NCBI GenBank assembly: GCA_024860865.1 | Contig: JACRDV010000044.1 | Coordinates: 1 to 7,270 of the forward strand | Source: JACRDV01 sp024860865 [NCBI: Methanobacteriota archaeon] | GTDB taxonomy: Archaea; JACRDV01 | Length of the DNA stretch: 7,270 bases | Direction: 5' to 3' | In this document: piece after piece, positions 5,157-7,270 of the stretch | How the letters are laid out: each line of letters opens with the position of its first letter | How positions within the stretch are numbered: position 1 is the first letter of the stretch | Notes under the pieces: model-generated | Databases searched by the model: none | What the model saw: only the letters and a program-made list of their open reading frames with translations | What the model was told of the DNA's origin: nothing | Program-made: the position numbers and the translations under genes

Positions 5157-6002
5157 CTACATAGGTTTTTCTTGTGCCTCAGCGACTTTAGCTATTTCCG
5201 GCTCAGCTATTTCTGCTTTTACCTCTTCTACTCTTTTTATTTCTGGCATAATTTTTTCAACTGTACATTTAGTATAATAGTCAAAAAATCGGAGATAACC
5301 ATATCTCGCGTAAAATAGTAATCCAAGAATCATATCTAGTGGCAAAAGAAATGCTTTACCGATATTCCTGACTGCTGAATCTAAAATTTTTATCTTTTCC
5401 CCACTAACCTTTACGCACCTAATCCTAAACACATGCTTTCCCAGGGTCTGGCCTTTGTATGCATCTAAGACAGTGAAATATCCATAACTAGCTAAAAACA
5501 TCGTAGAGTATGAGGCAACCGTTTCATAGGTTGCATTTATTATTGGAGAGAGATCACCCGAAGCCAGTAACCAGAAATTCTTATCTAAAAACAATCCAGT
5601 GGATAAAAATAAAATGAGAGCATCTAAAGCAAAAGCTAGAATTCGCCGAGATATGATATCAAGGCTAAGAGGTTTCCCTATTTCTTTCAATCGTTCTTCT
5701 TTTAAGCCTATTAAGTGGAGTTTCTTATTAGCATCACAAACAATTTCGTGAGCGATTTTCCCGCACTCTGATAAAACGTAGGTACCCGAATTTGTTGGTC
5801 TAATAAATCTTTTAATTTTTCTTAAATGAAAGTTGAGCAATCCGCTGTCTATCTTCAGTGCGTCTAAAATTTCAGAATAAGACATCTCGATATTCTCATA
5901 CAACAATTGAATAATCTTCATACGAATTTCATGGCTAAGTACATCAAAAATATCGGCAACGTCACAGCAAGGCATTTGTTGCGTTTTATTAGTATTACTC
6001 AT
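5157..6002 (-). CDS. ArsR-like winged-helix / RDD-domain membrane protein
   Basis: Predicted two-domain protein. Numbered from the TTG at 6050, residues 31-105 form a winged helix: DVLSHEIRMKIIQLL is the typical first helix of ArsR-like archaeal regulators, IDSGLLNFHLRKI the recognition helix, and TNSGTYVLSECGKIAHEI the wing and last helix. Residues 131-265 are an RDD domain with SRRILAFALDALILFL (RR and D143), GQTLGKHVFRIR (200-211), RNIGKAFLLP and the closing LRFFDYYTKCTVEKI. Two or three helices cross the membrane. The tail 272-297 is charged, rich in Glu, Lys and Ala. CC at 28-29 and C105 might bind a ligand, unproven. I take the ATG at 6002 (281 residues), which follows a GGGA; ATG at 6014 or TTG at 6050, the latter overlapping the transposase end, are possible. 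Function is unknown: it may link a membrane state to transcription, or the DNA-binding fold may be vestigial. Confidence 0.85.
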   Translation of the reverse strand: MSNTNKTQQMPCCDVADIFDVLSHEIRMKIIQLLYENIEMSYSEILDALKIDSGLLNFHLRKIKRFIRPTNSGTYVLSECGKIAHEIVCDANKKLHLIGLKEERLKEIGKPLSLDIISRRILAFALDALILFLSTGLFLDKNFWLLASGDLSPIINATYETVASYSTMFLASYGYFTVLDAYKGQTLGKHVFRIRCVKVSGEKIKILDSAVRNIGKAFLLPLDMILGLLFYARYGYLRFFDYYTKCTVEKIMPEIKRVEEVKAEIAEPEIAKVAEAQEKPM

Positions 6003-6024
6003 CAAATTTCCCATATTATTTTTG

Positions 6025-6630
6025 CTAAGATAGGTAAAAAGGTTTTGCAATTTTTCTTTTTTGTTTAAGTGCCCATCTATTATGCTTTATATCGCATTTT
6101 AAGGTCTGACTTTTGCTATTGAAATACTCGACATATCTAGCTATTGCTTCCTCAAGCTCTTTTTTACTTTTATAGTTGCTGTTGTTTATAACATCCCTTT
6201 GAAGTGCTGAGAAAAATTGCTCGATTCTATTCAACCATGGAGTATTTGTTGGAAGATATACTAGCTCAATTTTTCCATCTTTTTCAACAAATTCTTTAAA
6301 AGCTTTAGATCTATGAACAGACCAGTTGTCAAGGATCAAGTATATCTTTTCTTCAGTTTCTTTCCTAACTTCTTTTAAAAAATCAATCGCTTCAATGGAA
6401 GTTTTTCTTTCATAGCACTTTGAAAGAACTTTTTTAGAATGAGGATTGAAAACTGATAAGAGCTCTGAAGTCTCTTTTACTTCTTGCCTTTCTAGAACTT
6501 TTCTTCTCTCTTTGCTCCAGCTTTCGCCTCCATATTCTTTTATTGCAATTGTTCCCTTTTCATCGAAGCAAAGGACAGCTCCATCCTCTGGCTTTCTTTC
6601 ATAGAGCTCAATAACTCTGTTTTTTTTATC
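6025..6630 (-). CDS. IS630-family transposase, second frame (D-D-E catalytic part)
   Basis: This frame opens just 5' of the A8 run (a TGA lies at once upstream) and has no ribosome binding site or good start of its own, so it should be made only as a fusion with the first frame. The fused protein would have 359 residues. Translated by hand, it holds the whole catalytic core: LCFDEKG with Asp181, LILDNWSVHRSK with Asp259, and LPTNTPWLNRIEQFFSALQR with Glu295, which leaves 35 residues between the second Asp and the Glu, as IS630/Tc1 enzymes have. No stop interrupts the frame until TAG at 6027-6025. All three metal-binding residues and the DN-S-H-SK signature are present, so the enzyme looks able to cut and join DNA if the frames are joined. 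The TTG at 6339 is an in-frame codon, not a likely start. Confidence 0.85.
   Translation of the reverse strand, partial: DKKNRVIELYERKPEDGAVLCFDEKGTIAIKEYGGESWSKERRKVLERQEVKETSELLSVFNPHSKKVLSKCYERKTSIEAIDFLKEVRKETEEKIYLILDNWSVHRSKAFKEFVEKDGKIELVYLPTNTPWLNRIEQFFSALQRDVINNSNYKSKKELEEAIARYVEYFNSKSQTLKCDIKHNRWALKQKRKIAKPFYLS
6085..6093 (-). promoter_or_regulatory. possible TATA box inside the transposase 3' end, facing the RDD gene
   Basis: GATATAAAG on the minus strand lies about 80-90 nt upstream of the ATG starts of the RDD gene, within the last codons of the transposase. A start about 25 nt downstream would give a leader of some 50-60 nt. It could give the RDD gene a promoter after the insertion sequence separated it from its own upstream DNA. 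The match is by eye only. Confidence 0.25.
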
Positions 6631-7103
6631 TCATAGTTTGGGTCATTGCTTTTCAGCCATTTCTTCGCTTTTTTGTACTCTATTTCATTTTTCCTTAGGA
6701 TTCTCCTAATTGTCTCGTTGCAAATCCTCCTAACGATTTTTTTCTCTTTTAAATAGCTTTGAAGCTTTTCTAAGCTCCAAGTGTTGTAAGGCAGTCCTAG
6801 ATCAGAAGGTTTTGAAGTTGCTATTCTAACTATTTCCTGCTCTTGCTCTTTTGTGAAGTTTCCTTTTTTAGTTTTTGGCCATTTTGTAAAAAGACCTTCA
6901 ACTCCTCTCTCATTGAACCTTTTTATCCACTTTCTAATTGCACAAGGGTGCATGTCAACCTTTGGATTTATTTCAACTGGATTAAGCCCTTCTCTTGATA
7001 GCAAAATTATCTTTGCCCTTTTAGCTATGGCAACATCATTCGAATCTAATAGAGGGTAAAGCCGATTCAATTCTTCCTGAGAGATTTCTCTAACAAATAA
7101 CAT
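6540..7103 (-). CDS. IS630-family transposase, first frame (DNA-binding part)
   Basis: The first 161 or so residues are the N-terminal half of the transposase. Residues 10-75 form a helix-turn-helix of the IS630 kind: LLDSNDVAIAKRAKIILLS, then a recognition region with HPCAIRKWIKRFNERGVEGLF. A second winged helix follows (about 85-140), ending ETIRRILRKNEIEYKKAKKW. This part binds the terminal repeats. The start is ATG at 7103, preceded 5 nt upstream by a very strong GAGGTGGT ribosome binding site; the TTG at 7118 upstream lies inside that site and is unlikely. In this frame the sequence after the A8 run (6620-6627) loses family similarity and stops at 6540. A -1 slip at the run joins it to the catalytic frame. 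If no slip occurs, a protein of 187 residues with DNA binding but no catalysis would result, a possible inhibitor. Confidence 0.85.
   Translation of the reverse strand: MLFVREISQEELNRLYPLLDSNDVAIAKRAKIILLSREGLNPVEINPKVDMHPCAIRKWIKRFNERGVEGLFTKWPKTKKGNFTKEQEQEIVRIATSKPSDLGLPYNTWSLEKLQSYLKEKKIVRRICNETIRRILRKNEIEYKKAKKWLKSNDPNYEIKKTELLSSMKESQRMELSFASMKREQLQ
6603..6627 (-). other. candidate -1 frameshift signal: A8 slippery run plus hairpin
   Basis: In the first frame the mRNA reads GAG ATA AAA AAA ACA, giving a perfect A AAA AAA slippery heptamer within eight A (6627-6620). Slipping back one base gives AAA AAC AGA GTT, exactly the catalytic frame. Just downstream AGAGTT and AGCTCT (6618-6603) can pair as a 6-bp stem with a 4-nt loop, though only 2 nt from the heptamer, closer than usual stimulators. 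Transcriptional slippage adding one A would have the same effect. A single-base loss is the alternative. Confidence 0.6.
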
Positions 7104-7108
7104 TATAC

Positions 7109-7116
7109 ACCACCTC
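7109..7116 (-). promoter_or_regulatory. ribosome binding site of the transposase
   Basis: GAGGTGGT on the minus strand, 5 nt before ATG 7103, closely matches the complement of the archaeal 16S rRNA 3' end. It decides the start and argues against TTG 7118. Confidence 0.7.
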
Positions 7117-7146: not shown

Positions 7147-7270
7147 CTGTGTCAGACGTTAGAAAAATTAACCTATTGCCTCTTAGATGGTGCAGTTAAG
7201 GTTAAGAAAAAAAGGTTTTATTATAAAGTTATTGAAACCTATGGAACAATAGAAATAGCTGATTTTGAAA
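7135..7270 (+). pseudogene. open plus-strand frame without a start, running off the right edge; gene fragment or IS end
   Basis: A frame opens after TGA at 7132-7134 and stays open for 45 codons to the end of the window. It has no ATG, GTG or TTG in frame. The translation begins KFKNLCQTLEKLTYC and ends KRFYYKVIETYGTIEIADFE, a Lys/Glu-rich composition that looks more like protein than the minus-strand reading does. I do not recognise the family. It could be a host gene that lost its 5' end to the insertion sequence, a remnant of a second transposase (the bases for CQTLE match those for SQTLK in the C-terminus of the neighbouring transposase), or non-coding DNA that belongs to the IS end. Confidence 0.3.

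Follow-up and report, generated by a model that had tools for sequence, protein, structure and literature searches.

A frame-split IS630-type transposase gene in an archaeon and the probable role of slippage at its A8 run

Insertion sequences (ISs) of the IS630 family are bounded by terminal inverted repeats and duplicate a TA target. IS630 is listed among the IS families that use frameshifting, and a Roseiflexus member is cited as a case in which genes are expressed through transcriptional realignment (PMC5009743). A large body of such cases comes from the GeneTack study of Antonov (2013), in which two HTH_Tnp_IS630 clusters (667870043 and 858558073) gather 495 genes shifted by -1 and 185 shifted by +1, with 98-100% of them carrying a poly-A/T stretch of at least 7 nt near the predicted shift (PMC3711429). 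For these clusters, programmed transcriptional realignment is proposed by the authors. Archaea account for 77 of the 1106 genomes of that work, a figure that applies to the whole study and not to the two IS630 clusters (PMC3711429). Earlier, Baranov (2005) described IS genes with overlapping frames at A9 and some A8 runs in hosts including Sulfolobus solfataricus, with a run length varying between copies in Nostoc and Deinococcus (PMC1088944). In the available text of an archaeal recoding review, a word search finds no IS630, and transposases appear only as pyrrolysine-containing proteins and in one reference (PMC8211752). Among titles and opening lines of abstracts, a scope leaving most subscription literature outside, no bench work on archaeal IS630 frameshifting was found.

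The window, i.e., the whole stretch of 7,270 nt analyzed here, ends with an IS630-type transposase gene carried by the minus strand. Its first frame, ORF1 (6540-7103), begins with an ATG at 7103 and stops at 6542-6540. The ATG is preceded by GAGGTGGTGTATA, which is Shine-Dalgarno-like; read directly, the Shine-Dalgarno-like stretch GAGGTGGTG is found at 7108-7116 on the minus strand, just 5' of the ATG. ORF1 encodes the HTH half of the transposase (HTH_32, HTH_29, and HTH_23 above cut-off), whereas the DDE catalytic half (DDE_3, 93 bits) is encoded by ORF2 (6025-6630, minus strand), open from 6630 and stopping at 6027-6025. On NF033545, the NCBIfam IS630 model of 299 positions, ORF1 covers positions 1-135 with 85.3 bits, the score of a half protein against a whole-protein cut-off of 100, and ORF2 covers positions 133-298 with 128.4 bits. 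As both halves are complementary on this model and meet at an A8 run (6620-6627, minus strand), they correspond to one protein divided once, at the run, which is the presumed slip site. In the ORF1 frame, this site reads ATA AAA AAA ACA, i.e., A_AAA_AAA. Shifted by -1 once the second AAA has been read, ORF1 continues into ORF2 and gives a protein of 359 aa with D181, D259, and E295, the columns of which are invariant in a four-row alignment. The original prediction, made from the letters of the window, had described a transposase split at an A8 run, with two overlapping frames joined by a -1 slip, the three catalytic residues kept, and no other lesion in 359 codons. All of this holds: the frames overlap by 88 nt (6543-6630, minus strand), the frame changes once, at 6620-6627, and neither half of the window copy contains a stop or a further frame change. 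One detail had to be corrected, as only a single codon (GAT), and not two, separates the opening of the second frame from the run.

Counting codons from 0 at the opening of the frame, ORF2 contains no ATG, GTG, or TTG until codon 97 (TTG at 6339), and the first catalytic Asp is codon 22. An independent start of ORF2 was thus rejected for the window element because the first start codon lies beyond this Asp, and in the absence of a usual start codon ahead of it, only the fusion could be active. Among split relatives, a start codon precedes the first catalytic Asp in 49 of the 78 assessed; nine more have no recognisable motif. Those having an early start codon may start their second half independently.

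The boundaries of the IS are less clear than its gene. The best ungapped candidate for inverted repeats matches at 14 of 18 nt, which is weak, with no flanking TA as far as the sequence was read. Weak terminal inverted repeats have been noted in an IS630 group (PMC2246112). Just past the 3' end of the transposase gene begins another minus-strand gene (5157-6014), encoding a protein with an RDD domain and, at the N terminus, a DUF7347 domain that weakly matches an ArsR-type HTH. Elsewhere in the window are found genes for complex I-type subunits, with matches to NuoM, FpoL, and FpoK/NuoK models.

The host genome is a draft assembly of 1.54 Mb in 160 contigs, in which the search returned a single full copy, that of the window, and one decayed fragment 81% identical to it (contig C16, positions 1501-1804 of locus L002) that stops short of the run. 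This fragment is broken by gaps at seven places over some 300 nt, and ORF2 is matched in three frames with stops in each. Its mismatches to the window copy are concentrated at third codon positions, with 29 there, 11 at first positions, and 6 at second positions; 40 codons are changed, and the amino acid is kept in 23 of them. This pattern indicates that selection acted on the ORF2 frame during part of the divergence. The C16 fragment is what decay looks like in this host, and the window copy is unlike that. At the right end of the contig, positions 7195-7270 match positions 1501-1583 of another locus of the same genome (L003, contig C65) and are identical save for a 7-nt gap. The gene matched there, recognised by eye, is one which we take to be a SufS-like cysteine desulfurase, and this match to part of it may represent either the remains of a gene next to the IS or an artefact of the assembly end.

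Outside the host, relatives are distant. A DNA search of 149 genomes, including its own, returned only matches of 22-33 nt in four other genomes, a scan of genome contigs returned two Okeania loci at 40% identity, and a scan of viral sequences gave no match to the IS. The protein search of 394 genomes gave matches in 37, including its own, and no genome of the host's phylum was among the matches listed. Across these DNA, contig, viral, and protein searches, no relative exceeded 40% identity. By E-value, the four best non-host matches come from genomes G253, G266, G078, and G153, all below 40% identity. In three of them, namely G253 (locus L012), G266 (L013), and G153 (L015), with ORF2 identities to the window of 38%, 35%, and 35%, the split falls where it does in the window protein, with runs of A8, A9, and A7, respectively; it directly follows an NDPxF-type sequence, which in G153 is PDKNF, plus two lysines. 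A -1 shift is needed in G266 and G153, whereas G253 needs +1 (or -2). In the remaining match, G078 (L014), that place reads AAA AAG CGC, without a run, and a single frame passes through it, with a TGA later; a single frame without a run is also seen at the same place in L016. Another split relative, L042 (G562), carries A6 followed by T5 in its overlap (GATAAAAAATTTTTGAG), which might act as a slip site made of two homopolymers. By itself, one A8 run is no surprise in a gene rich in A; what goes beyond chance is that relatives share both the split and its place.

The comparison was then extended over archaeal IS630 loci. Further searches of 371, 23, 34, and 344 genomes, in partly overlapping sets, gave 24, 6, 5, and 127 positive genomes. 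The last count is based on the matches listed, from which 30 loci were drawn automatically and 60 regions were selected by hand. The later loci were chosen with open-frame lengths in view, so that frequencies are not those of a random sample. After removal of 34 loci that duplicated a place already sampled, 31 represented by a single half, 10 whose junction was not covered, and eight with halves not adjacent, 133 had both halves and a readable junction; 121 are intact and 12 with internal stops were left out. L045 and L091, placed in the same frame by a first HMM pass, show by eye a -1 change at the run and a later second lesion; this assignment was rejected, and both stand outside the final counts, as their second half is not covered at the junction.

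Among the intact loci, those with A≥7 at the junction comprise 45 at -1, 42 at +1, and 10 in frame, and those with a shorter run or none comprise 21 in frame, two at -1, and one at +1. Clustering at 85% nucleotide identity gave 95 clusters, nine of them holding decayed rows only. Out-of-frame clusters represent 56 of the 64 with A≥7 (seven are in frame and one is mixed), whereas 19 of the 22 without such a run are in frame and three are out (Fisher p = 1.7e-10, the mixed cluster being left out). Two of the in-frame clusters, L055 and L068, have by eye an A7 that lies elsewhere in the linker, and they are still counted against the slip reading. For clusters made of later loci only, the prediction was set beforehand: with a run, 27 are out of frame, four are in, and one is mixed; without a run, two are out and five are in. 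The predicted trend held in these loci, and the wording "nearly all out of frame" is too strong for 27 of 32. Of the 97 intact loci with A≥7, 72 have TT before the run and 93 have C or G after it. The run is also retained in GC-rich genes. Five split relatives of 56-58% GC (L193, L195-L197, and L200, from G957, G1030, G888, and G917) each have one isolated A7, located at the frame change, for 0.03-0.04 expected runs of A7 or longer per core. Plasmid records of haloarchaea, 13 in number, contain near matches to L193.

The window element thus shares its site, its run, and its out-of-frame state with archaeal relatives. An intact split element with a run is present in 61 of the 86 archaeal genomes having any intact pair, that of the window included. 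The survey thus points to split frames being frequent among archaeal IS630 transposases, including those of GC-rich haloarchaeal type. The view that archaeal examples with evidence are few accordingly fails for sequence evidence; for results from the bench it may be true. The claim of a probable programmed -1 frameshift fared unevenly. A programmed slip at the A-run is borne out by the split and run common to relatives of 35-38% identity and by the tendency of A≥7 to go with the out-of-frame state, and -1 is the right direction for the window copy. As a general mechanism, a purely -1 shift is unsupported since relatives with a run need +1 about as often.

The length of the run differs between copies within some genomes. 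In G241, a single-contig genome, the 10 copies fetched of 11 listed all have A8 and need -1, and a relative of this element in G1046 has A7 and needs +1. In G993, for which 11 copies are listed and 11 of 31 candidates were scored, eight copies have A8 at +1 (L170-L176 and L180) and three have A7 in frame (L177-L179). In G814 (seven of eight matches taken), six copies have A7 at +1 (L164-L169) and one has A6 in frame (L163). The copies of G993 and G814 were chosen because their frame lengths differed. The loci L084 and L085 of one genome, which are 99.5% identical and whose first halves both contain a stop, have A8 (-1) and A7 (+1). These differences show that run length drifts from copy to copy, sometimes between the two out-of-frame states. 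A further pair, L038 (G259) and L039 (G347), is 97.8% identical with A8 and A21 at the junction, which may be a real expansion or an assembly error. What speaks most strongly against a strictly programmed state is the minority of copies that are in frame.

Comparison nonetheless lends good support to a slip at the A-run that is programmed. On balance, the IS630 transposase is probably kept in two frames deliberately, with slippage at A8, most likely that of RNA polymerase, giving the fusion. The run, placed in the linker between the DNA-binding and the catalytic halves, would be the slip site. Most messages or ribosomes would yield only the DNA-binding product of 187 aa. In a minority of cases, the polymerase copying the run would most likely add one A, or lose two, and a ribosome slipping by -1 on A_AAA_AAA could have the same effect. 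Either slip would produce the 359-aa protein, presumably the active transposase, and its low output would keep transposition rare. Several observations count against this proposal. The window copy is single in a draft genome, the other copy is decayed and without the run, and the inverted repeats are unclear; seven in-frame clusters and a mixed one have the run, and in-frame copies occur in G993 and G814; the early start codons of the 49 split relatives count likewise. That the six-row clade of the window is entirely at -1 counts against RNA polymerase as the slipper, being equally explained by a ribosomal -1 shift.

A clue to how the frames are joined is given by the direction of the shift. 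According to Antonov (2013), an unconserved direction is a mark of transcriptional realignment, whereas a conserved one denotes ribosomal frameshifting (PMC3711429). In a tree of 109 proteins, a quick tree with several long branches, split rows require no fewer than 13 switches between -1 and +1, some of them inside close clusters. By that criterion, RNA polymerase is the likely slipping agent in these relatives rather than the ribosome alone. Programmed -1 ribosomal frameshifting at the tandem lysine codons of A_AAA_AAA, the RNA being unaltered, is rather unlikely as the whole explanation, and yet several points speak for it. The site in the ORF1 frame is a heptamer given as a ribosomal frameshifting motif (PMC3711429), an archaeal virus is listed with a -1 site at A_AAA_AAC (PMC5009743), and all six rows of the clade of the window (support 88, not starred) are at -1. 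With a fitting heptamer and a uniform clade, ribosomal slipping is possible for the window element. The starred 11-row clade around it is less uniform, with eight rows at -1, two at +1, and one in a single frame; it includes L012, which has A8 yet needs +1 (or -2). The near balance of 42 intact loci at +1 with 45 at -1 speaks against a -1 mechanism, and the TTT AAA AAA AGC of L015 misfits, by eye, the heptamer expected for a two-tRNA -1 shift. The 131 nt spanning the run of the window fold somewhat better than shuffled sequences (z = -1.99; 7 of 200 shuffles as good), and a 6-bp hairpin directly follows the run, but downstream structure taken alone is weak (z = -0.96, -1.06, and -1.2), and over 67 elements no structure is enriched on either side of the run (mean z from -0.08 to 0.12).

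The split could also be an accident or a switch. That a one-base change in the run, by mutation or assembly error, has left a dead or mis-sequenced copy with nothing programmed is improbable. Homopolymers attract such errors, and this copy is the only one of a draft assembly, with inverted repeats that are not recognisable; however, the same kind of split is found in relatives from other genomes, single-contig ones included, and the truly decayed C16 copy has its many gaps and stops, whereas the window copy is free of a second lesion. Decay or sequencing error does not explain, at the level of these clusters, the association of the run with the out-of-frame state. Phase variation, in which replication slippage would alter the run and switch the transposase on and off, the out-of-frame copies being off, seems very improbable, even though run length differs among copies within G993 and G814, some of which are in frame, and between the near-identical L038 and L039. 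A random phase would leave two thirds of the clusters out of frame, whereas 56 of 64 are (p = 1.3e-4, kinship and choice of loci being ignored). In-frame copies are also the minority in both mixed-state genomes, and some length changes lead from one out-of-frame state to the other, as between G241 (A8, -1) and G1046 (A7, +1) or between L084 and L085.

The breadth of such splits across archaea makes a better story than the window element alone. It can be proposed, tentatively and with some doubt, that throughout archaea IS630 transposase genes are held out of frame at A7-A9 and that RNA polymerase slips there either way without a stimulatory structure. In that case, slippage of the archaeal RNA polymerase at runs as short as A7 would count among the ordinary means of protein production. 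Such split genes are easily dismissed as pseudogenes or sequencing errors, and comparison separates the two here. The in-frame and out-of-frame copies of G993 and G814, one A apart, constitute natural test pairs for transposase output. Moreover, cultured and named hosts carry the same type, which makes the respective parts of RNA polymerase and ribosome directly testable. RefSeq holds an IS630 CDS of 1048 nt on pMETEV01 of Methanohalobium evestigatum and another of 1022 nt on pHsi540 of Haloarcula sinaiiensis, neither length being a whole number of codons; in both, the frame changes at an A7, with +1 needed in the former and -1 in the latter. From their lengths, both appear to be slip-joined annotations. 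Three other named archaeal IS630 CDSs examined are single-frame, with no A-run at that place.

Compared with the known systems, the window transposase resembles the GeneTack IS630 clusters in being split at a poly-A stretch and in having relatives that shift in both directions; it differs from them in that the nearest IS relative found is less than 40% identical. The elements of pMETEV01 and pHsi540 are archaeal IS630 members with an A7 junction like that of the window type, but belong to other IS630 subgroups. The overlap at A8-A9 is also shared with the elements of Baranov (2005), a study which searched for A9/T9 and, in its available part, names no IS families (PMC1088944). The Roseiflexus element belongs to the same family, its host being a bacterium, whereas the window host is an archaeon. 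Its realignment is reportedly stimulated by a stem-loop, whereas the 67 archaeal elements show no enriched structure. The slip trick is thus already known for the IS630 family, mainly from bacteria, and the window element is a distant further case of it.
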